Assembly (NCBI GenBank): GCA_949317995.1 | Contig: OX439046.1 | Coordinates: 74,726,286-74,790,285, forward strand | Direction: 5' to 3' | From: Acholoe squamosa | Taxonomy: Eukaryota > Annelida > Polychaeta > Phyllodocida > Polynoidae | DNA: 64,000 nt | Shown: piece after piece, positions 4,743-57,925 of the stretch | Layout of the letters: the number at the start of each line of letters is the position of its first letter | Numbering within the stretch: position 1 is the first letter of the stretch | Program-made: the position numbers and the translations under genes | Notes under the pieces: generated by a model | The model's input: the letters and a program-made list of their open reading frames with translations, nothing else | Told to the model about the DNA's origin: nothing | Database searches by the model: none

Positions 4743-5451
4743 GGCTGAACCACTTCCAACCCATATCTCATAGTTCAAAGATTAAAGACATACGCAAACC
4801 TCTTCTAGGTGTGATAGTTGGCTAAGTCTATCAGAATCGAGCTTTCCATTGCTCATGACTATGGGTATAAAGAGGACTACACATAAAAAAAGGGGATGTG
4901 GCACAGGGACCCAGTATCCTTTCTAACTATCCTGTCAGTCACTGGGGATATGAATCTAGGTCATAGGTCAAGGGTCAAGGCCACTGGGGATCTTTATAAA
5001 AGGTCACACAGGGTCAGACCTGGGCCACGTGACAGGAAGGTGACACTGCATTATGGGAATTATGGGAAGGTAATGAAAAAGTACATCCGGGCCACCCTCA
5101 TCCTCACCCTCCCTACAGTCTGGGTTCTAGGCCACCTAATATATTTGAAGACATAAGAGTACTTGTTTCTGTTTTTTGATTATTTTTGTTTCTATTATTC
5201 TAAGCTTCCAACATGTTAACCCTGTAGGACCTCTTATATAATGCGGCATTGGTTGGTATGATGCAGCAATGAGGTGAAGTGCACAAGTTATGTTAACCCT
5301 CCTGTATTCACCAAACCCTGTAGGGTTAGCATTCTGTGTGCAAACTTCTGCATTCATCCATCATTACGACACTTGGGCGTGAGGTATGCAACAATGGCCC
5401 TTGGATGCCTAATCCACACATGTTTATTTGTTACTGATTACCATCATCAGT

Positions 5452-5685
5452 TTAACCCTTTAAAGTCCACTGACGCATTAATGCATCATGCCCATTAGTC
5501 GTCATGATGCACCAATGAAGTGCTGGCGAGCAATCTCGCCAGCACTTCATTAGAGCATCATGCCGACCCTCCAGGGTTGATACACAAATTCCCAGAGGGT
5601 TAGCATGATGCACCAATGACATGCTTCATTGGTGCATCATGACGACCAATGGGAATCAATCCATCAGCGGTCCTAAAATGGTTAA
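5452..5685. mobile_element. NHF element, A-A type, nearly complete
   Basis: Starts TTAACCCTTTAAAGTCC and ends GCGGTCCTAAAATGGTTAA, about 234 bp. The first hairpin A is intact (arms around 5503-5552). The second is an A hairpin collapsed by loss of its loop and inner stem (CACCAATGACATGCTTCATT). The centre reads CCGACCCTCCAGGGTTGATA. Confidence 0.85.
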
Positions 5686-8085: not shown

Positions 8086-8198
8086 GCTGACTAGCAGCCA
8101 GAGGGAGGGGTTTTTCATAAATCAATGACTTCATTAAAACACGTTAAACCCCATTTAGTCACTATTGGAGATGAAAGCACACATCCCTCCCGGGCATA

Positions 8199-9509
8199 CA
8201 GCACCAACCCCCACTCACCCACATAGATATTAACCCTAAGGACCTTCGTCACAGCACCGACCCCCACTCACCCACATAGATATTAACTCTAAGGACCTTC
8301 GTCACAGCACCAACCCCCACTCACCCACATAGATATTAACTCTAAGGACCTTCATCACAGCACCAACCCCCACTTACCCACATAGATATTAACTCTAAGG
8401 ACCTTCGTCACAGCACCAACCCCCACCGACCCCCACTCACCCACATAGATATTAACTCTAAGGACCTTTGTCACAGCACCAACCCCCACTCACCCACATA
8501 GATATTAACTCTAAGGACCTTCGTCACAGCACCGACACCCACTCACCCACATAGATATTAACTCTAAGGACCTTTGTCACAGCACCAACCCCCACTCACC
8601 CACATAGATATTAACCCTAAGGACCTTCGTCACAGCACCAACCCCCACTCACCCACATAGATATTAACCCTAAGGACCTTCGTCACAGCACCAACCCCCA
8701 CTCACCCACATAGATATTAACTCTAAGGACCTTCTTCACAGCACCGACCCCCACTTACCCACATAGATATTAACCCTAAGGACCTTTGTCACAGCACCAA
8801 CCCCCACTTACCCACATAGATATTAACTCTAAGGACCTTCGTCACAGCACCAACCCCCACCGACCCCCACTCACCCACATAGATATTAACTCTAAGGACC
8901 TTTGTCACAGCACCAACCCCCACTCACCCACATAGATATTAACTCTAAGGACCTTCGTCACAGCACCGACACCCACTCACCCACATAGATATTAAACTTA
9001 AGGACCTTCGTCACAGCACCAACCCCCACTCACCCACATAGATATTAACTCTAAGGACCTTCGTCACAGCACCAACCCCCACCAACCCCCACTCACCCAC
9101 ATAGATATTAAACCTAAGGACCTTCGTCACAGCACCAACCCCCACTCACCCACATAGATATTAACTCTAAGGACCTTCATCACAGCACTGACACCCACTC
9201 ACCCACATAGATATTAACTCTAAGGGCCTTCGTCACAGCACCAACCCCCACTCACCCACATAGATATTAAACCTAAGGACCTTCGTCACAGCACCAACCC
9301 CCACTCACCCACATAGATATTAACTCTAAGGACCTTCGTCACAGCACCAACCCCCACTCACCCACATAGATATTAAACCTAAGGACCTTCGTCACAGCAC
9401 CAACCCCCACTCACCCACATAGATATTAACCCTAAGGACCTTCATCACAGCACCGACCCCCACCGACCCCCACTCACCCACATAGATATTAACTCTAAGG
9501 ACCTTCGTA
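8199..9509. repeat. 53-bp minisatellite, about 24 copies
   Basis: Unit CAGCACCAACCCCCACTCAC, then CCACATAGATATTAACTC and TAAGGACCTTCGTCA (53 bp). Some units carry an 11-bp internal duplication (CCCACCGACCC). The same run of variants starts at about 8411 and 8844, so a block of about 433 bp was itself duplicated. Contiguous units without unique spacers exclude a CRISPR array. Confidence 0.95.
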
Positions 9510-9733
9510 TTAATTTTAGGTTCTGGGATACCGTGAAGTGCTTTTTATGTCCCTTGGGGTTGTGGTTTCGGCGAGGTGCATGGTAAAATATTATCTATAT
9601 ATTTCCGAGAAAGGTTTGCTGAAACTAGGAGTAGGGGAGGGATAGGGAACAAAATCGATCTTGGCTCTGAAGGTATTTTGCTCATCCCCCTTGGGAAGGG
9701 GAAGTTCTTAGTGTAAATGTTTATGTTTATGTT

Positions 9734-9960
9734 GAAGGGCCGCTGCTGCAGTAATGCATCATGCCCATTGGTCGTCATGATGCACCAATGAAGTGCTGAT
9801 GAGACTGCCCGCCAACACTTCATTGGAGCATCATGCCGACCCTCCAGGAGTATATATGTAGGCTTGATGCTCCAATGAAGTGTGGGTGACTACTATTGCC
9901 AGTGCTTCATTGGAGCATCATGATGAGATGATGGCATGATGCACTCCTGCATGGAGGTTT
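9734..9960. mobile_element. NHF element, A-A type
   Basis: Terminus GAAGGGCCGCTGCTGCAGTA, hairpin A at 9775-9834, centre GACCCTCCAGGAGTATATAT, second A hairpin with CTCCAATGAAG/CTTCATTGGAG arms, and terminus GCACTCCTGCATGGAGG. Confidence 0.8.
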
Positions 9961-15842: not shown

Positions 15843-16062
15843 TTAACCCTTTAAGGGAACTGGTTCATTAATGCACCATGTCCATTGGTCGTCATGATGC
15901 TCCAATGAAGCGCTGGCGAGACTGCTCGCCAGCACTTCATTGGAGCATCATGCCGACCCTCCAGGGGTTGATACATATACTCCCGGCAAGCAGTCTGGCC
16001 AGCACTTCATTGGTGCATCATGCCGACGTGCACTCCTACAACAGCGGCCCGTAATGGGTCAA
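15843..16062. mobile_element. NHF element, A plus partial A
   Basis: TTAACCCTTTAAGGGAACTG start, complete A hairpin with CTCCAATGAAG arms (15893-15951), centre CCTCCAGGGGTTGATACATA, right arm only of a second A hairpin, and end ACAGCGGCCCGTAATGGGT. Confidence 0.85.
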
Positions 16063-16972
16063 CATGCACAATATTCTGCTCCCAAACTCCCCCACCTACT
16101 CCCTCCAACCAAGATTAATCTAATTCCTCAAAATTAAAAACTGGATTATCTTTAATTACAAATTTCTCATTTCTTCGGTCCGCCCGGCACGAATGGCATT
16201 CATCAGTTGTATTATATTGCCATCTTGTAATTTATGGAAAAGTACTTGTTCGAAGCCACAGCGAAATTATGTTTTCCACAGGGAAAAGCTCGTTGGCTGT
16301 TTCTGTTCTTATGAAAGAGTTCCATTAATAAGAAATTTAATTCAAGGAAAAGTTCTAGAAAACTAAATCATTTAGCTGGACCAAATATCTGGCCTGATTT
16401 CAAGACTTTAGGCTACAAAGCAGTCTTTATGGCTTGAACATTGGCCAAACATTAAGGTCTTGCAACCCAAAAGAAAATATTGTAAAGGATAACTTACAAT
16501 TACAGATATCAAAATAAGTTAGATGATTGAAATGGTAAGGTTATTTTTGTTGATTCTTTTACTAAAGAAGGTACTAAGGGTCCCAAGACCAAGCACCAGG
16601 CGTGTTTGGCCCCTCCTTCATCTCAAGGTGCGTCTTTTATACAAGGTGCACCTCATAGGCCAGATTTTGGTCAGGGATGGAAGTCTTCATAGTTTTCCCT
16701 GATTTCAGGGATTGACAAGTTCTAAGGACCTATAAATTTTTACTATAACTTATAAACCCCATATTTTAGGGGTTCTTATTGAGTTATTCAGGAATTTCGC
16801 GGGCAGTGACAGTCTTGAAGAAATAAATTAAAGATGAATGAGCCCACAACTGCTAGTTTGTCACAAACATCATCATGTCATTTCCGCCCTTTTTGTGCTT
16901 CCTCAGAGTAAGCGACTCGGCTTCATTAATCTTCTAATCTAATTATAATCAATTGTCACTTATTAAGTACAA

Positions 16973-18117: not shown

Positions 18118-18380
18118 ACTTGGTTGTCCTGATGCACTAATGCCTGTTCCTTGATTCTCATGATGCACCAATGCATCTTCCTTGGTTGTCATGATGCACC
18201 GATGCATCTTTTTTGGTTATCATGATACACCAATGCATCTTCCTTGGTGGTCATGATACACCAATGCATCTTCCTTGGTGGTCATGATACACCAATGCAT
18301 CTTCCTTGGTGGTCATGATACACCAATGCATCTTCCTTGGTTGTCATGATACACCAATGCATCTTCCTTGGTGGTCATGT
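18118..18380. repeat. 31-bp minisatellite derived from NHF hairpin arm
   Basis: About eight units of CCTTGGTGGTCATGATACAC plus CAATGCATCTT. The unit is the NHF segment ATTGGTCGTCATGATGCACC with AATGCATC. Early units keep GATGCACC and later ones read GATACACC, showing spread of one variant. Confidence 0.85.
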
Positions 18381-22575: not shown

Positions 22576-22796
22576 GGCTGTGTTCATATTTTCATATTGA
22601 GAGTTGACTTTAGGGATACAAGAGGTAACCTGATTGCAAAATAGGCCCAATACCATTGTTTCATTATGATGTAATTGTTAAAAAGTTCTTCTTAGAGCAC
22701 AGAAGTGTTGTGTCAGCATTTTGATCTAGCTCTAGGGGAGCATAATTTAACATGAAAGCTGTAGGATATGATATTATATGGGCCAAAGGGACAATT

Positions 22797-23033
22797 TTAA
22801 CCCATTAAAGCCCGCTGATGCAATGGGCATGATGCACCAATGAAGTGCTGGTGAGACTAGCACTCCATTGGTGCATCATGTCGACCCTCCCGGATCGCTA
22901 CATACACTCCCAGAGGGTCGGCATGATGCTCCAATGAAGTGCTGGCGACCATTCTCACCAGCACTTCATTGGTGCATCATGCCGACCAATGGGCATGATG
23001 CATTAATGTATCAGCGGCCCTTAAAGGGTTAAG
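22797..23033. mobile_element. NHF element, A-A type, full length
   Basis: TTTTAACCCATTAAAGCCCG start and GCGGCCCTTAAAGGGTTAA end, 237 bp. The first hairpin is shortened in the loop. The second has arms CATGATGCTCCAATGAAGTG and CACTTCATTGGTGCATCATG. Confidence 0.9.
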
Positions 23034-25437: not shown

Positions 25438-26205
25438 GCACCACCCAAGCTGCATGAAGATCCAGCCCTACAATAAAGTCACTACCCCAGCCTCATTCTC
25501 ACCATGTGACCCCAACCTGACCTTGACCTCGGCCCCTGACCTTGATGACCACCTGCAGACTGGGCAATTTGCGCCCTTCATCACTAGAGGGGAGATGTGG
25601 GGGGGGGGGGGGATTTCAGGGCAGGCAGTGGGCGGATCTGGGTGTGTAAGGAGATTAGTCCTACTCAGACCTTGGGTAAGAGTCCTGGACCGATGTAAAG
25701 GAACCCCTCCTAACATCTTTTCAGTAATGGCGACCCTCTTCACCTTTTTTAGGAAATGGCGATGAAAATTCATTTTCTTTGTCTCATATTCGAGTAATAA
25801 GTGGCAAGGTTTTCACATAGCATAGAAGTCACGGAATTTCGTGGAATATAAAGCTGTTAAAAGCAATAGAATTCAATTGAATTTTATGCAGTTCAGGGAA
25901 AGTGATGGACAAGGGAAATCTGAATATTTCATGGCCCCGCAACTGCAGACATTTTTCTAGAGGTTATGACCAAAATTGAGTAATTATGTCAGGGTAAATC
26001 TTGATTTTTATCATGCAAAGTCATGGAAAATGTCATGGAATTTCAGTCTGGAGATTTTGTAGGAACCCTGATCCCTGTCCAAGCCTTACACTATTGAAGC
26101 CAACCCTGGCAGATGCAGAACAATATCCTGTAGCCCCAGCAGTAGAGGTCAGACAGGGCCGTCAGGGGGTCTGAGGGGTGTGGTGTAGTATTGGTGGCAG
26201 CTACA

Positions 26206-26462
26206 TTAACTCTTTAAGGGCCGCTGATGCAGGAGTGCATCATGCCCATTGGTCGTCATGATGCACCAATAAAGTGCTAGCGAGACTGCTCGCCAGCACT
26301 TCATTGATGCATCATGACAACCCTTCAGGACTGTATCTATCCTTGCAGGGTCATCATGATTCATGAATGTAGCCCTGGTGAGTTACTCGCCAGGGCTACA
26401 TTCATGAATCATGATGACCAATGGGCATGATGTATTAATGCATTAGTGACCCTTAAGGGGTA
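26206..26462 (+). mobile_element. NHF element, A-B order, full length
   Basis: TTAACTCTTTAAGGGCCGCT start, hairpin A, spacer CCTTCAGGACTGTATCTATC, hairpin B, end GTGACCCTTAAGGGG. Hairpin B has a perfect 28-bp stem (26351-26378 with 26390-26417) although its sequence (GATTCATGAATGTAGCC) differs from the usual B arm; both arms carry the same changes. Confidence 0.9.
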
Positions 26463-26633: not shown

Positions 26634-27622
26634 CATGTATCACCTATGAAGTGCTGGTGAATCTGCTCCCCAGCACTTCATTGGTGCATCATGCCGACCC
26701 TCGGGTAGCGAATCAAACCTGCATTGTCGGCATGATGCATGAATACCGTAGTGGCCTGTAAAAGCGCCCGGGCGCTCATTAATTTCATTCCCACTGTACC
26801 CCCAGTGCTTATATGAGACAGGCGCTTATTTGAATACTGTTTTTAGTGCCTAAGAATGATTTCAGTGACCATGTACCGCTGGCACTTATATGAGTCAGGC
26901 GATTATTTGAATACTGTTTTTAGTGCCTAAGAATGATTTCAGTGACCCTGTACCGCCAGCACTTATACGAGTCAGGTACTTTTTTGAATACTGTTTTTAG
27001 TGCCTAAGAATGATTTCAGTGACCATGTACCACTGGCACTTATATGAGTCAGGCGATTATTTGAATACTGTTTTTAGTGCCTAAGAATGATTTTAGTGAC
27101 CCTGTACCGCTGGCACTTATATGAGACAGACGCTTATTTGAATACTGTTTTTAGTGCCTAAGAATGATTTCAGTGTCCCTGTACTGCAGGCACTTATATG
27201 AGACAGGCGCTTATTTGAATACTGTTTTTAGTGCCTAGGAATGATTTCAGTGACCCTGTACCACCAGCACTTATATGAGACAGGCGCTTATTTGAATACT
27301 GTTTTTAGTGCCTCGGAATGATTTCAGTGACCCTGTACCGCCAGCACTTATATGAGTCAGGCGCTTATTTGAATACTGTTTTTAGTGCCTCGGAATGATT
27401 TCAGTGTCCCTGTACCACTGGCACTTATATGAGACAGGCGCTTATTTGAATACTGTTTTTAGTGCCTAGGAATGATTTCAGTGACCCTGTACCGCTGGCA
27501 CTTATATGAGTCAGGCGCTTATTTGAGACCCCGGCGCTTAAAGAGGCCATTACGGTATAAAGGCCTGGTGAGTTTCTCACTAGGGCTATATTCATGCATC
27601 ATAACGACCAATGAGCATTAAC
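26634..27622 (+). mobile_element. NHF element, A-B order, interrupted by a nested MITE
   Basis: Hairpin A (26648-26692), spacer, then the left arm of hairpin B GGCATGATGCATGAA, where the TACCGTA MITE begins. Hairpin B resumes after it (GGCCTGGTGAGTTTCTCACT, then ATTCATGCATCATAACGACC). Confidence 0.8.
26744..27557. mobile_element. TACCGTA-end MITE carrying a 77-bp tandem array
   Basis: TACCGTAGTGGCCTGTAAAA at the left and CTTAAAGAGGCCATTACGGTA (last 20 shown by the complement) at the right form inverted ends. Conserved GCGCCCGGGCGC/CCCCGGCGCTTA follow inside. About nine 77-bp units (ACTTATATGAGTCAGGCGCT, TATTTGAATACTGTTTTTAG, TGCCTAAGAATGATTTCAG) occupy 26807-27516. Confidence 0.85.
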
Positions 27623-30420: not shown

Positions 30421-30850
30421 TAACCTTTTATAGGCTGCATGTGAGAGATCAATGCAACCCTGGTAAGTTCCTTACCAGGGCTACATTCATGCATCATGCT
30501 GACCAAAAAGGGTTGAAAGGGTGAGCATGATGCACCAATGCAGTGCTGATGAGTAGACTTAATGCATTGGTGCATCATGCTGCATTGGTGCATCATGCTG
30601 CATTGGTGTATCATGCTGCATTGGTGCATCATGCTGCATTGGTGCATCATGCTGCATTGGTGCATCATGCTGCATTGGTGCATCATGCTGCATTGGTGCA
30701 TCATTGCATCATGCTGCATTTTGGTGCATCATGCTGCATTGGTGCATCATGCTGCATTGGTGCATCATGCTGCATTGGTGCATCATGCTGCATTGGTGCA
30801 TCATGCTGCATTGGTGCATCATGACGACTAAGGAACATAAACAGTTAAAC
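30421..30850 (-). mobile_element. NHF element, B-A order, with expanded hairpin A arm
   Basis: TAACCTTTTATAGGCTGC start, hairpin B (ACCCTGGTAAGTTCCTTACC...), centre AAAGGGTGAGCATGATG and the left arm of hairpin A. The right arm of A is multiplied into the 18-bp array (30567-30826) before CATCATGACGACTAAGG closes the element. Confidence 0.8.
30567..30826. repeat. 18-bp satellite made from the NHF hairpin A arm
   Basis: About 14 units of GCATTGGTGCATCATGCT. The unit is the return arm of hairpin A (CATTGGTGCATCATG) plus three bases. One unit has a 7-bp partial duplication (ATCATTGCATC) near 30702. Confidence 0.9.
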
Positions 30851-34687: not shown

Positions 34688-37255
34688 TTCTCACTATATG
34701 ACATGAAAGGTCACCAGTGCTGTAGTCAGGTATCTTGGTGATCTTCTCACTATATGACATGAAAGGTCACCAGTGCTGTAGTCAGGTATCTTGGTGATCT
34801 TCTCACTATATGACATGAAAGGTCACCAGTGCTGTAGACAGGTATCTTGGTGATCTTCTCACTATATGACATGAAAGGTCACCAGTGCTGTAGACAGGTA
34901 TCTTGGTGATCTTCTCACTATATGACATGAAAGGTCACCAGTGCTGTAGACAGGTATCTTGGTGATCTTCTCACTATATGACATGAAAGGTCACCAGTGC
35001 TGCAGCCAGGTATCTTGGTGATCTTCTCACTATATGACATGAAAGGTCACCAGTGCCGCAGTCAGGTATCTTGGTGATCTTCTCACTATATGACATGAAA
35101 GGTCACCAGTGCTGTAGACAGGTATCTTGGTGATCTTCTCACTATATGACATGAAAGGTCACCAGTGCTGTAGACAGGTATCTTGGTGATCTTCTCACTA
35201 TATGACATGAAAGGTCACCAGTGCTGTAGACAGGTATCTTGGTGATCTTCTCACTATATGACATGAAAGGTCACCAGTGCTGTAGACAGGTATCTTGGTG
35301 ATCTTCTCACTATATGACATGAAAGGTCACCAGTGCTGCAGTCAGGTATCTTGGTGATCTTCTCACTATATGACATGAAAGGTCACCAGTGCCGCAGTCA
35401 GGTATCTTGGTGATCTTCTCACTATATGACATGAAAGGTCACCAGTGCTGTAGACAGGTATCTTGGTGATCTTCTCACTATATGACATGAAAGGTCACCA
35501 GCGCTGTAGTCAGGTATCTTGGTGATCTTCTCACTATATGACATAAAAGGTCACCAGTGTGCAGTCAGGTATCTTGGTGATCTTCTCACTATATGACATA
35601 AAAGGTCACCAGTGCTGTAGTCAGGTATCTTGGTGATCTTCTCACTATATGACATGAAAGGTCACCAGTGCTGTAGTCAGGTATCTTGGTGATCTTCTCA
35701 CTATATGACATGAAAGGTCACCAGTGCTGTAGTCAGGTATCTTGGTGATCTTCTCACTATATGACATGAAAGGTCACCAGTGCTGTAGTCAGGTATCTTG
35801 GTGATCTTCTCACTATATGACATAAAAGGTGACCAGTGCTGTAGTCAGGTATCTTGGTGATCTTCTCACTATATGACATGAAAGGTCACCAGTGCTGTAG
35901 TCAGGTATCTTGGTGATCTTCTCACTATATGACATGAAAGGTCACCAGTGCCGCAGTCAGGTATCTTGGTGATCTTCTCACTATATGACATGAAAGGTCA
36001 CCAGTGCTGTAGTCAGGTATCTTGGTGATCTTCTCACTATATGACATGAAAGGTCACCAGTGCCGCAGTCAGGTATCTTGGTGATCTTCTCACTATATGA
36101 CATAAAAGGTGACCAGTGCTGTAGTCAGGTATCTTGGTGATCTTCTCACTATATGACATAAAAGGTGACCAGTGCTGTAGTCAGGTATCTTGGTGATCTT
36201 CTCACTATATGACATGAAAGGTCACCAGTGCCGCAGTCAGGTATCTTGGTGATCTTCTCACTATATGACATAAAAGGTGACCAGTGCTGTAGTCAGGTAT
36301 CTTGGTGATCTTCTCACTATATGACATAAAAGGTGACCAGTGCTGTAGTCAGGTATCTTGGTGATCTTCTCACTATATGACATGAAAGGTCACCAGTGCC
36401 GCAGTCAGGTATCTTGGTGATCTTCTCACTATATGACATAAAAGGTGACCAGTGCTGTAGTCAGGTATCTTGGTGATCTTCTCACTATATGACATGAAAG
36501 GTCACCAGTGCCGCAGTCAGGTATCTTGGTGATCTTCTCACTATATGACATAAAAGGTGACCAGTGCTGTAGTCAGGTATCTTGGTGATCTTCTCACTAT
36601 ATGACATGAAAGGTCACCAGTGCCGCAGTCAGGTATCTTGGTGATCTTCTCACTATATGACATAAAAGGTGACCAGTGCTGTAGTCAGGTATCTTGGTGA
36701 TCTTCTCACTATATGACATGAAAGGTCACCAGTGCTGTAGTCAGGTATCTTGGTGATCTTCTCACTATATGACATAAAAGGTCACCAGTGCTGTAGTCAG
36801 GTATCTTGGTGATCTTCTCACTATATGACATAAAAGGTCACCAGTGCTGTAGTCAGGTATCTTGGTGATCTTCTCACTATATGACATAAAAGGTGACCAG
36901 TGCTGTAGTCAGGTATCTTGGTGATCTTCTCACTATATGACATAAAAGGTCACCAGTGCTGTAGTCAGGTATCTTGGTGATCTTCTCACTATATGACATA
37001 AAAGGTGACCAGTGCTGTAGTCAGGTATCTTGGTGATCTTCTCACTATATGACATGAAAGGTCACCAGTGCTGCAGTCAGGTATCTTGGTGATCTTCTCA
37101 CTATATGACATAAAAGGTGACCAGTGCTGTAGTCAGGTATCTTGGTGATCTTCTCACTATATGACATGAAAGGTCACCAGTGCCGCAGTCAGGTATCTTG
37201 GTGATCTTCTCACTATATGACATGTGCTGTAGTCAGGTATCTTGGTGATCTTCTG
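34688..37255. repeat. 56-bp satellite, about 46 copies, with higher-order structure
   Basis: Unit TTCTCACTATATGACATGAA plus AGGTCACCAGTGCTGTAGTC and AGGTATCTTGGTGATC. Two main variants exist: ATGAAAGGTCACC with GCCGCAGTC, and ATAAAAGGTGACC with GCTGTAGTC. From about 35,940 onward they alternate in two- and three-unit blocks (112 and 168 bp). The last unit carries a deletion. Every unit holds an AGGTCA or GGTGACC sequence. Confidence 0.97.
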
Positions 37256-43140: not shown

Positions 43141-43778
43141 AATAAACAGCCTTGGTATTCTCCCTGATTCACCCGGGTTAAACCCTTTAAGGACTGTTGA
43201 TAAACAGCCTTGGTCTTCTCCCTGATTCACCAGGGTTTAACCCTTTAAGGACTGCTGATAAACAGCCTTGGTATTCTCCCTGATTCACCAGGGTTTAACC
43301 CTTTAAGGACTGCTGATAAACAGCCTTGGTATTCTCCCTGATTCACCCGGGTTTAACCCTTTAAGGACTGTTGATAAACAGCCTTGGTCTTCTCCCTGAT
43401 TCACCAGGGTTTAACCCTTTAAGGACTGTTGATAAACAGCCTTGGTCTTCTCCCTGATTCACCAGGGTTTAACCCTTTAAGGACTGCTGATAAACAGCCT
43501 TGGTATTCTCCCTGATTCACCAGGGTTTAACCCTTTAAGGACTGCTGATAAACAGCCTTGGTATTCTCCCTGATTCACCAGGGTTTAACCCTTTAAGGAC
43601 TGCTGATAAACAGCCTTGGTATTCTCCCTGATTCACCAGGGTTTAACCCTTTAAGGACTGCTGATAAACAGCCTTGGTATTCTCCCTGATTCACCAGGGG
43701 TTAACCCTTTAAGGACTGCTGATAAACAGCCTTGGTATTCTCCCTGATTCACCAGGGTTTAACCCTTTAAGGACCGTT
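43141..43778. repeat. 58-bp satellite containing the NHF terminus, 11 copies
   Basis: Unit AATAAACAGCCTTGGTATTC then TCCCTGATTCACCAGGG and TTTAACCCTTTAAGGACTG, ending TTGAT/CTGAT. The last 25 bases equal the NHF left end. The final unit runs directly into an NHF half element, so the array arose from NHF terminus plus its flank. Confidence 0.95.
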
Positions 43779-43878
43779 GATACAGGAGTCCATCATGCCC
43801 TTTGGTCGTCATGATGCGCCAATGAAGTGCTGGCGAGTCTGCTTACCAGCACTTCATTGGTGCATCATAATTATGAGT
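43757..43878. mobile_element. NHF left half ending the 58-bp array
   Basis: TTAACCCTTTAAGGACCGTT, ACAGGAGTCCATCATGCCC, complete hairpin A (loop GCGAGTCTGCTTACC), broken off at GCATCATAATTATGAG. Confidence 0.88.
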
Positions 43879-44971: not shown

Positions 44972-45752
44972 CTAGGGTCGGCTTGATGCATGGATACAGC
45001 TCTGGGGAGTTACTCACTGTTCGTGGCGAGTTACTCACTGTTCATGGCGAGTTACTCGCTGTTCATGGCGAGTTACTCACTGTTCTTGACGAGTTACTCA
45101 CTGTTCGTGACAAGCTACTCACTGTTCGTGGTGAGTTACTCGCTGTTCGTGGTGAGTTACTCGCTGTTCGTGGTGTTACTCGCTGTTCGTGGTGAGTTAC
45201 TCGCTGTTCGTGGTGAGTTACTCGCTGTTTGTGGCGAGTTACTCGCTGTTCATGGCGAGTTACTCACTGTTTGTGGCGAGTTACTCACTGTTCGTGGCGA
45301 GTTACTCACTGTTCGTGGCGAGTTACTCGCTGTTCGTGGTGAGTTACTCGCTGTTCATGGCGAGTTACTCGCTGTTCATGGTGAGTTACTCACTGTTCGT
45401 GGTGAGTTACTGTTCGTGGTGAGTTACTCACTGTTCGTGGTGAGTTACTCACTGTTCATGGCGAGTTACTCGCTGTTCGTGGCGAGTTACTCGCTGTTTG
45501 TGGTGAGTTACTTGCTGTTCATGGCGAGTTACTCGCTGTTCATGGCGAGTTACTCACTGTTCTTGAAGAGTTACTCACTGTTCATAAGTTACTTACCCTG
45601 TATGTATCATGTTATTCAAAGGGCATTTCACAGATCGCTCTATAAAATGTCGACCTAATTCGTCAGTATGACAATATTGACAATACAGAGTCGTCATCCT
45701 GATGACTAAGGTCGTCCGGATGCACTCCTGCATCAGCGGCCATTAAAGGGTT
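44972..45752 (-). mobile_element. NHF element whose hairpin B loop has expanded
   Basis: Starts in the centre/B side (TAGGGTCGGCTTGATGCATG, ATACAGCTCTGGGGAG). The loop sequence GAGTTACTCnCTGTTC is then repeated for about 595 bp. After about 100 bp it ends with TCCTGCATCAGCGGCCATTA then AAGGGTTA. Confidence 0.7.
44999..45594. repeat. 21-bp satellite made from the NHF hairpin B loop
   Basis: About 28 units of CTGTTCGTGGCGAGTTACTCG/A. GGCGAGTTACTCGCC is the palindromic tip of hairpin B. Units vary at GGCGAG/GGTGAG and TTCGTGG/TTCATGG, and no unit is interrupted by unique sequence. Because 21 is divisible by three, all frames stay open and give a false 222-codon ORF. Confidence 0.93.
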
Positions 45753-48239: not shown

Positions 48240-49045
48240 ATTTGCTTATTGCACACTCTGAAGACCCTATGTCTTCTGTGGCTGGTTTAGGATGGAGGAC
48301 TGAGGGATGGGGGAGTCTTATTGCTCACTTTGAAGACCCTATGTTGTCAGTGCAGGGTCAGGTTGGAGGATTGAGGGATGGGACAGTCTTATTGCTCACT
48401 TTGAAGACCCTATGTTGTCAGTGCAGGGTCAGGTTGGAGGATTGAGGGATGGGACAGTCTTATTGTGCACTTTGAAGACCCTATGTTGTCGGTGCAGGGT
48501 CAGGGTGGAGGGACTGAGGGATGGGGCAGTCTTATTGCTCACTTTGAAGACCCTATGTTGTCAGTGCAGGGTCAGGGTGGAGGGACTGAGGGATGGGGCA
48601 GTCCTATTGCTCACTTTGAAGACCCTATGTTGTCAGTGCAGGGTCAGGGTGGAGGGACTGAGGGATGGGGCAGTCTTATTGCTCACCTTGAAGACCCTAT
48701 GTTGTCAGTGCAGGGTCAGGGTGGAGGGACTGAGGGATGGGGCAGTCTTATTGCTCACCTTGAAGACCCTATGTTGTCAGTGCAGGGTCAGGGTGGAGGG
48801 ACTGAGGGATGGGCAGTCTTATTGCTCACTTTGAAGACCCTATGTTGTCAGTGCAGGGTCAGGGTGGAGGGACTGAGGGATGGGCAGTCTTATTGCTCAC
48901 TTTGAAGACCCTATGTTGTCAGTGCAGGGTCAGGGTGGAGGGACTGAGGGATGGGCAGTCTTATTGCTCACTTTGAAGACCCTATGTTGTCAGTGCAGGG
49001 TCAGGTTGGAGGGACTGAGGGATGGGGCAGTCTTATTGCACACAT
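48240..49045. repeat. 71/72-bp minisatellite, about 11 copies
   Basis: Unit CTTATTGCTCACTTTGAAGA plus CCCTATGTTGTCAGTGCAGG, GTCAGGGTGGAGGGACTGAG and GGATGGGGCAGT. The outermost left unit is the most diverged and the right units are nearly identical. Confidence 0.95.
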
Positions 49046-52215: not shown

Positions 52216-52877
52216 GGCTGTCATGGTGTATACACACAACCCTGAGAAGTAGACTCACATTCATGCACCATGGCGCCCCTCCAGGCTTGAGTAGGGTGGG
52301 TATGATATGCCTCCAGGCTTGAGTAGGGTGGGTATGATATGCCTCCAGGCTTGAGTAGGGTGGGCATGATATGCCTCCAGGCTTGAGTAGAGTCGGTATG
52401 ATATGCCTCTAGGCTTGAGTAGGGTGGGCATGATATGCCTCCAGGCTTGAGTAGGGTGGGCATGATATGCCTCCAGGCTTGAGTAGAGTCGGTATGATAT
52501 GCCTCTAGGCTTGAGTAGGGTGGGCATGATATGCCTCCAGGCTTGAGTAGGGTGGGCATGATATGCCTCCAGGCTTGAGTAGAGTCGGTATGATATGCCT
52601 CTAGGCTTGAGTAGGGTCGGTATGATATGCCTCCAGGCTTGAGTAGGGTGGGTATGATATGCCTCCAGGCTTGAGTAGGGTGGGTATGATATGCCTCCAG
52701 GCTTGAGTAGGGTGGGTATGATATGCCTCCAGGCTTGAGTAGGGTGGGTATGATATGCCGACAGGCTTGAGTAGGGTCGGTATGATATGCCGAGTGAACT
52801 CACCAGGGCTGCATGCCGGCAAGCAGTCTCACAAGCGCATTGGTTGGCATGATGGGCTCCAGCATTAAAGGGCTAAA
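52216..52877 (-). mobile_element. NHF element with expanded central spacer
   Basis: CTGTCATGGTGTATACAC..., hairpin remnants (CATTCATGCACCATGGCGCC at the left, CACCAGGGCTGCATGCCGGC at the right) and end TCCAGCATTAAAGGGCTAA flank a 32-bp array. Confidence 0.65.
52281..52792. repeat. 32-bp satellite made from the NHF centre, 16 copies
   Basis: Unit AGGCTTGAGTAGGGTGGGTA plus TGATATGCCTCC. CCCTCCAGG and AGGGTCGGCATGATG of the NHF centre can be seen in it. Variants GGGTGGG, GAGTCGG and CCTCTAGG form a three-unit (96-bp) higher-order pattern repeated in the middle of the array. Confidence 0.9.
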
Positions 52878-54981: not shown

Positions 54982-55376
54982 CCATCCCTAACCCTAACCT
55001 CAACCCTATCCCTAACCCTAGCCCTAGACCTATCCCTAGCCCTATCCCTAACCCTATCCCTATCCCTAACCCTATCCCTAACCCTAGCCCTAGCCCTAAC
55101 CCTAGCCCTAGCCCTAGCCCTAGCCCTAACCCTATCCCCATCCCTAACCCTAACCTCAACCCTATCCCTAACCCTAGCCCTAGCCCTAGCCCTAACCCTA
55201 ACCCTATCCCTAACCCTATCCCTAACCCTAGCCCTAGCCCTATCCCTAACCCTATCCCTATCCCTATCCCTAACCCTAACCCTATCCCCATCCCTAACCC
55301 TAACTTCAACCCTGCCCTCAACCCTAGCCCTAGACCTAACCCTAGCCCTAGCCCTAGCCCTCACACCAACCCTAAC
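54982..55376. repeat. Degenerate telomere-like CCCTAA repeat
   Basis: About 395 bp of hexamers CCCTAA, CCCTAG and CCCTAT in mixed order with a few CCTCAACC interruptions. CCCTAA is the complement of the TTAGGG animal telomere unit. An inner segment (CCCATCCCTAACCCTAACCT) recurs, showing local duplication. Unique sequence on both sides makes it interstitial. Confidence 0.9.
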
Positions 55377-55466
55377 CCTTGCACATTATCCATACTTTAT
55401 GGAATCTAAGGAAAGGATGTTGATCTGGAGGCCATTTCTTAACACACTATGACTGCTGTCCTTCAA

Positions 55467-55680: not shown

Positions 55681-56385
55681 AATGGCCTCCAGAGGGGAAA
55701 TGTCCTGTGTGGGAGATGTCTCGGGGGGAAATGTCCAGGGGGAGTTGTCCTGGCACCCATTACACAGAGCAGCTTTTAGACACACTCCCTCACCTATGTA
55801 GCTCTGGGATGAAGTACATTTTCACATTTTGGGCAAGGATAAAGTGCACGAAGGTAGTATAAAACCCTAAGGGGCGCTACTGGCCTAAGCAGAACCTTAT
55901 TTTGGGAATCACCTAGACACCATTATAAAGTATCCTGCCTGTTCGCTGTCCTCCTTTGTCAGGAATTCTGTACCCTCAAGTCTTCTTTACATATGACCGT
56001 AATTCATACAAGGCGTGGCTTCTATGTGAGGTTGGTGCTACCTTGCAGATAGGGAGGTTTGTTTTTATACTGCAGCACCAAACTACCCAACATATGACTC
56101 CATATTTACCTGATAAGTCTAGTTTAATTTAGGGTGTTTAATATATATGAGGTGCATCTTATACCTGAGAAGGTACTACCCCATAGATGTCAACCCGTCC
56201 ACCCCACACTGCACCTCATGCAGTCTATAACAGCAGCAACCGAGTTCTCCTCCTCCTCTCCTCTCTCCATTTTCCCGACCCTCCTCCCTCTCCCCTTATA
56301 CTACTCACACTCCTTCAGTCCACACAAAATGCTACTGAGTACTTCTTATGATTCCTGCCCACCCGTACCCCCTTCTATCCCCTGG

Positions 56386-56609
56386 CCCTTTAAGGGCCGC
56401 TGATGCATTAATACATCATGCCCATTGGTCGGCATGATGCTCCAATGAAGTGCTGGCAAGACTGCTCACCAGCACTTCATTGGAGCATCATGCCGACCCT
56501 CCGGTATATGTATCAACCCCATAGGGTCGGCATGATGCTCCAATGAAGCACCTAACTGGTACATCATGACAACCGATGAGAATGTTGCAACTCCTGCATT
56601 AAAGGGATA
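56386..56609 (+). mobile_element. NHF element, A hairpin in both slots
   Basis: CCCTTTAAGGGCCGCTGATG start and hairpin A with A-type spacer CCCTCCGGTATATGTATCAA. The B-side spacer CCCCATAGGGTCGGCATGAT is followed by an A-type sequence (GCTCCAATGAAGCACC) instead of B. End CTCCTGCATTAAAGGGATAG. Confidence 0.85.
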
Positions 56610-56690
56610 GAGACATGGGACGAACACCCCTTACTGCGTCCCCTCTCCCCCTCTAACCAACAGACAGCCCCTTCTAGCTCTAGGACTAAT

Positions 56691-56893
56691 GCTTTAGGGC
56701 CAGCATGATGCCTCAAAGGCTTTTTGATCATGATGCACCAATGTAGTGCTGGCAGGTCTACTCACCAGCACTACATTGGTGCATCATAACAACCCTTCAA
56801 GAGTGTATTGACCCTGTAGGGTTGGTATGGTGGATGAATGCAGACCTGGTGAGTTGCCCACCAAGGCTGCATTTATGGATTATGATATCAAAG
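56691..56893 (+). mobile_element. NHF element, A-B order
   Basis: Hairpin A has a perfect 23-bp stem (56730-56752 with 56765-56787) carrying AATGTAGTG in place of AATGAAGTG, mirrored in the other arm. Spacer CTTCAAGAGTGTATTGACCC, then hairpin B. Confidence 0.82.
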
Positions 56894-57589: not shown

Positions 57590-57834
57590 CTCTTTAAGGG
57601 CCCCTGATGTATTAAAACATTGGATGTCATGATACATAAATGTAGCCCTGGTTAGTTACTCACCAGGGCTACATTTATGTATCATGACGACGCTATACTG
57701 GAATCCTGGAATCCTGGAGGGTCGGTATGATGCACCAATGAAGTGCTGGTGAGCAGTCTCACCAGTGCTTCATTGGTGCATCATGACGACCAATGGACAT
57801 GATGCACTCCTGCATTAGCAGTCCTTAAAGGGTT
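57590..57834 (-). mobile_element. NHF element, B-A order, full length
   Basis: TCTTTAAGGGCCCCTGATGT start and GCAGTCCTTAAAGGGTTGG end, 245 bp. Hairpin B is a perfect 25-bp stem (57628-57652 with 57662-57686) in which ATACATAAATGTAG replaces ATGCATGAATGCAG on both arms. Confidence 0.92.
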
Positions 57835-57925
57835 GGTACCAGTTTAACCAGGTTATTCCTGTCTTGTACTCCTATTTTATGGAGATGAATGGGGTTCTGA
57901 AATCAAACCCATAACTGCATGTCGC

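Follow-up and report, generated by a model that had tools for sequence, protein, structure and literature searches.

The inverted repeats of this region are hairpin modules of a single repeat, a MITE of ~245 bp. The mirror-perfect arms seen in a few of them are the exception in a family whose arms have decayed almost independently, with a strong paired excess at two stem columns, 13 and 22. The most satisfactory account, and probably the right one, is that of an old, TTAA-flanked, non-autonomous MITE whose paired variants were inherited from source elements and were followed by independent decay. The hairpins would then be modules of an old non-autonomous DNA transposon with piggyBac-like ends and thousands of copies, whose source elements would have borne near-symmetric hairpins and some of whose source lineages would have differed by paired changes (A versus B type, C or T at column 22, G or A at column 13). 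Each new copy would take the form of its source, after which ordinary independent substitution would erode one arm or the other. Copies of a variant source that are young, or that have escaped change by luck, would appear mirror-perfect, and such copies would be the ones singled out in the initial annotation.

The window, the whole 64,000-nucleotide stretch of Acholoe squamosa DNA that was analysed, lies at 74.7 Mb of a 78.6-Mb contig in an assembly of 1.48 Gb and 63 contigs. An iterated nhmmer profile search, which yielded the ~245-bp consensus, recovered 136 MITE fragments across the window and 26 loci, with 65 fragments making up 16.3% of the window, and a pattern count for one hairpin of the MITE found 3962 places in the whole genome. 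The consensus ends, TTAA/CCCTTTAAGGG (also given as CCCTTTAAGGGCCGCT ends), pair with each other; the left-end consensus is TTAACCCTTTAAGGGCC and the inverted ends begin CCCTTT. In the predicted consensus fold (−215 kcal/mol, RNA parameters) the ends form an outer stem that encloses three inner hairpins: A, middle and B. The family is short and of high copy number, with terminal inverted repeats and a TTAA target-site duplication, and is a MITE, its length of ~245 bp leaving it without coding capacity. A TTAA duplication together with CCC-type ends is typical of the piggyBac superfamily; both were found here (in the left-end consensus, and for the right end in individual copies), and these flanks and ends suggest kinship with piggyBac. 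The 59 long copies diverge from the consensus by 13–43%. Left ends could be recognised in 29 of these 59 copies (unrecognised in 30) and right ends in 12 (unrecognised in 47); TTAA is exact at 15 and 5 of them, respectively, the search motif itself having included TTAA and permitted up to 7 substitutions.

An A hairpin occupies both slots in six elements, always with the second one inverted (window 5449–5676, 9732–9953, 15851–16064, 22794–23024 and 56382–56603; L025 176–417), and in the element at 5449–5676 the first is inverted as well. A recent transfer of the A hairpin to the B slot within these elements was considered and is unsupported: the identity between their two A hairpins is higher than the average with other A hairpins in five of the six, and in none is it higher than with the best other A hairpin. 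Among the matches listed, B hairpins also form head-to-tail arrays of ~70–75-bp units (C1:4286689–4287380, C1:4802037–4802393, C2:1490009–1491000 and C5:2930653–2930845). The window holds four minisatellites, at 30563–30823, 18119–18379, 45003–45583 and 43142–43782, with units of 18, 31, 21 and 58 bp, respectively, that by eye resemble pieces of the MITE: the stem of a hairpin, its tip and the TTAACCCTTTAAGG end. It is crowded by further minisatellites with 32–77-bp units (8198–9508, 34688–37224, 26808–27526, 48245–49043 and 52278–52791), one also with a 381-bp period, and includes an interstitial telomere-like (CCCTAA)n array of ~390 bp at 54986–55379.

The three hairpins that first drew attention belong to three copies of this family. 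The copy at 57594–57837 (minus strand; iterated nhmmer profile match, 17% from the consensus) presents its B hairpin and then its A hairpin on the plus strand. Its B hairpin (57623–57691) has mirrored non-consensus pairs at columns 13, 17 and 22 and a perfect run of 27 bp, and its A hairpin (57721–57791; inverted repeat I18) carries single-arm changes and is 88% complementary. The full-length copy at 26203–26458 (plus strand; profile match), the best preserved in the window and the first query, has an A hairpin at 26251–26321 that is likewise 88% complementary and a B hairpin at 26349–26418 with mirrored non-consensus pairs at columns 5, 13 and 22. In the copy at 56687–56892 (plus strand; profile match) it is the A hairpin (56727–56792) that is of interest, with a single mirrored change, A to T at column 22. 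The perfect stems claimed for these hairpins are exact: counted from the ends, pairing extends over 25, 28 and 23 bases at 57628–57686, 26351–26417 and 56730–56787, respectively, and relative to the family consensus the mirrored changes are present at the columns given above. Five perfect stems of at least 20 bp (loop of at most 15) occur among the 74 hairpin matches in the window, besides an (AT)n run, and the three hairpins belong to these five. A 30-bp perfect stem forms the first hairpin of the plus-strand copy at 56382–56603, one of those with A-type hairpins in both slots.

It had been proposed from these cases that hairpin arms stay mirror-perfect within a copy while diverging between copies, and as a rule this fails. 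In 314 kb, 77 A and 53 B hairpins were found, of which 57 A and 39 B were analysed with both arms, the others (20 of the 77 A and 14 of the 53 B) being excluded because an arm had under 30 aligned bases. Right arms were shuffled by permutation, a mirrored change being the same non-consensus base on both arms. The 96 hairpins show 705 single-arm changes versus 62 mirrored ones, where permutation gives 45. Among the A hairpins 27 mirrored changes compare with 22.5 permuted (sd 3.7), beside 372 one-arm changes, and among the B hairpins 35 compare with 22.7 (sd 4.5), beside 333. Retrieval of 40 further loci supplied a second A set of 22 hairpins, with 10 mirrored changes versus 7.1 (P = 0.14). The fraction of paired positions is slightly higher than under permutation in both types (A, 0.790 versus 0.778, sd 0.005; B, 0.719 versus 0.694, sd 0.008), and the clearest per-column excess among the A hairpins is at column 22, with 5 mirrored versus 0.5 expected. 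One apparent B hairpin with eight mirrored changes, L024:6685–6750, was rejected, its letters showing a junction of element ends; the row is still counted in the 96-hairpin permutation, the per-column counts, the pair distances, the tree and the long-perfect-stem tests. Without it the B hairpins have 27 mirrored changes versus 21.8 (P = 0.12), and with columns 13 and 22 also removed, 16 versus 15.1. The premise that independent mutation would break pairing is correct, and in most of the hairpins examined pairing has been broken.

Long perfect stems were examined post hoc, with tests picked once the cases had been seen. Two or more mirrored non-consensus pairs within a perfect stem of at least 23 bp were found in 2 of the 39 B rows versus 0.08 permuted (P = 0.003), and perfect stems of at least 20 bp in 5 of the 39 B rows versus 1.05 (P = 0.002). 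The corresponding A counts were 6 of 57 rows versus 3.7 for stems of at least 20 bp (P = 0.13) and 1 of 57 for a mirrored change in a stem of at least 23 bp (P = 0.30). Both B hairpins named in the initial annotation thus stand out as outliers, and perfect stems of such length are more frequent in B than permutation gives; the preferred reading accounts for neither. For the hairpin at 57628, an exact-anchor pattern of its mirrored 13A plus 17A form occurs at two places genome-wide, the window and C5:71115615; with only one other genomic place, no sizeable subfamily accounts for it. Beyond its 25–27 perfect pairs this stem has unpaired positions at the foot and near the loop, and these, together with the 88% complementarity of the A hairpin in the same element, indicate that the copy has not been exempt from decay. 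We take it as a moderately old copy of a rare source variant, with part of it unexplained.

The check suggested in the initial annotation, a count of paired versus unpaired substitutions on a tree of copies, was run on the 96 hairpins; the tree is weak, having 68 columns and including the mis-called L024:6685 row. On its terminal branches the doubles number 34, of which 13 are mirrored, against a chance expectation of 32.1, beside 524 one-arm changes; on its internal branches there are 5 doubles, of which 3 are mirrored, against 2.9 expected, beside 164 one-arm changes. The 20 closest A pairs differ by 66 one-arm versus 2 mirrored differences, and the closest B pair (distance 0.06–0.10) by 6 one-arm and no mirrored differences. 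At middle distances doubles of both kinds lie above the independence figure, e.g. 0.131 versus 0.063 of changed A pairs at 0.10–0.14, and in each A or B bin past 0.06 in which doubles occur the unmirrored kind is the more frequent, a result to be expected from variable columns and unequal ages. Unequal copy ages may also account for the slight pairing excess, the long perfect B stems and the middle-distance doubles.

The correlation between arms was then expressed for each stem column as F, the two arms being treated as two alleles, with exact pattern counts across the whole genome. At column 22 there are 1129 C/C, 516 T/T (294 expected) and 590 other hairpins, 2235 in total (F = 0.43). Column 13 gives 2007 G/G, 286 one-arm and 126 A/A hairpins (30 expected; F = 0.40), and a rough scaling for tandem arrays reduces the A/A count to about 84–86 (F = 0.37 at ~84). 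The control column 27, with 1129 C/C, 107 one-arm and 8 T/T hairpins versus 3.0 expected, has an F of 0.085 (P = 0.003). As a share of variant hairpins the mirrored excess is ~4% at column 27, 20% at column 22 and 23% at column 13. In the 113 hairpins among the matches listed, columns 25–30 pooled are without arm correlation (5 mirrored versus 3.4, 131 one-arm versus 133.4; F = 0.018), as is the CpG column 31 (F = 0.01). A set of 43 hairpins on C1, unselected at columns 13, 14, 17 and 22, was also drawn from the matches listed, 12 of the 55 listed + rows having been removed as further array members or a duplicate. Column 22 there has 8 mirrored versus 3.9 (P = 0.006, F = 0.38), and the rest of columns 10–30 shows no excess (4 versus 2.6, P = 0.25). 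F lies between −0.08 and 0.12 at columns 25–33, is 0.36 and 0.29 at columns 14 and 17, with few variants, and is −0.07 at column 13, which does not reproduce the genome-wide excess there; at that sample size no more than one or two A/A hairpins are expected. On C1 (127 Mb), C/C22 and T/T22 hairpin matches among those listed are concentrated in the first 16 Mb and past 111 Mb, with four between.

These counts bear directly on the proposal that arm-to-arm conversion or template switching maintains pairing. Occasional template switching or conversion within a hairpin (quasipalindrome correction) would, in resident copies, use one arm as the template for rewriting its partner, and could be credited with the three mirrored changes in each of two B hairpins, with the post hoc excess of long perfect B stems and with the small excess at column 27 (8 versus 3.0). 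Such a mechanism is described elsewhere: template switching that restores pairing is reported for RNA genes in PMC8794818 and for yeast inverted repeats in PMC8604942. It should, however, affect all stem columns, and the pooled columns 25–30 and the CpG column 31 are without arm correlation among the matches listed, the excess at column 27 is a small share of variant hairpins compared with those at columns 22 and 13, doubles on terminal branches are at chance and differences between the nearest A copies fall mostly on a single arm. Arm rewriting in resident copies is thus unsupported and, even as an occasional event, seems distinctly improbable; as a general and ongoing rule it is rejected on the permutation counts, the close pairs, columns 25–30, the tree and the B recount. 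Since arm-copying in resident copies should couple all stem columns and only 13 and 22 are strongly coupled, the pattern fits variants already present on both arms of the sources, and we infer that resident copies inherited the paired excess and did not create it themselves.

Mirrored and one-arm A13 hairpins were compiled from the matches listed on C1–C6, with 34 of 50 and 79 of 100 listed places kept, respectively; both sets omit members of arrays and hairpins that had gained or lost bases, which were singled out by eye. The 34 mirrored A13 copies, among the matches listed, lie on column-22 backgrounds of C/C (17), C/T (8), T/T (7) and A/C (2), which argues against one old uniform subfamily or one simple clade and can also be read as favouring arm rewriting. 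By eye, 19 mirrored-A13 loci show no other obvious shared diagnostic change, apart from a local cluster on C5. Two routes would account for this: paired states that appeared in source elements on more than one occasion, or recombination of hairpins between copies; arrays of the hairpin, with units of about 70–75 bp, do exist. Half-hairpin chimeras were considered and rejected, as one-arm A13 hairpins with C/T at column 22 have T22 and A13 on the same arm in 13 cases and on opposite arms in 11 among the matches listed. The alternative named in the initial annotation, that the symmetric variants are simply a few old subfamilies with no paired changes arising within lineages, is therefore largely borne out, in that coupling lies more between subfamilies than within resident lineages, but not wholly, given that mirrored A13 occurs with both C/C22 and T/T22.

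Inheritance from sources leaves room for a cause of their symmetry, and one reading, compatible with the preferred one, adds such a cause: the arms of source elements matched because symmetry was needed for, or made by, transposition, through a self-copied folded single strand or a transposase needing the same site twice, and the match was lost after insertion. Several columns distinguish the A from the B consensus hairpin, on both arms together, A/A, C/C and T/T states at column 22 all occur among A and B hairpins, and columns 13 and 22 are paired genome-wide, all of which would follow. Precedents are the Angel stem-loop amplification model (as summarised in PMC12628747) and the stems of DINE-1 (PMC2374699). 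Set against this, columns 6 and 15 of the A hairpin have common states that do not pair, so that source elements were without strict symmetry, and the internal branches of the tree, with 5 doubles versus 2.9, 3 of them mirrored, hold too few for proof. This reading is a tentative one, a real possibility that we would not favour. In a stricter and rather unlikely version, coupled two-arm changes would arise only during element replication, through a self-templated folded intermediate; A13/A13 and T22/T22 would have arisen repeatedly in sources on different backgrounds, and mutations in resident copies would each affect a single arm. The strong predicted fold of the consensus could suggest selection on RNA that folds, such as a structural RNA or the precursor of a small RNA, but copies decay mostly on single arms and an Rfam scan of the window gave no structured RNA family match at gathering score, making this a very remote prospect.

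On the preferred reading of inherited variants and independent decay, a few perfect copies can suggest covariation that is largely absent from a big repeat family, and treating the arms as alleles, with F for each stem column, offers a simple test. Two strongly paired columns versus a near-independent rest provide a handle on the timing of arm symmetry, at transposition or later. If coupling did arise only in replication, the hairpins would preserve, as fossils, a replicative fold-back step of an element supposed to move by cut and paste.

A text search of the open-licence literature found no paper on this MITE family, and the comparisons that can be drawn are with better known elements. With piggyBac-type non-autonomous elements the family shares TTAA flanks, inverted ends starting CCCTTT, short length and high copy number; unlike them, it consists almost wholly of inverted repeats nested within inverted repeats. 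DINE-1 of Drosophila, in which stem differences between species suggested compensatory mutations to the authors of PMC2374699, differs in its short 7–11-nt stem, its other ends and its other insertion site. In Xenopus, internal parts of the Xstir MITE also form tandem arrays (Hikosaka and Kawahara 2004, as cited in PMC12628747), comparable by description, not by sequence, with the arrays of hairpin units of about 70–75-bp seen here. The zebrafish MITE Angel is likewise a stem-loop MITE and was proposed to amplify via its stem-and-loop structure (Izsvak 1999, as cited in PMC12628747); the likeness is again one of description, not of sequence, and the present family differs from it in enclosing three inner hairpins within an outer stem.
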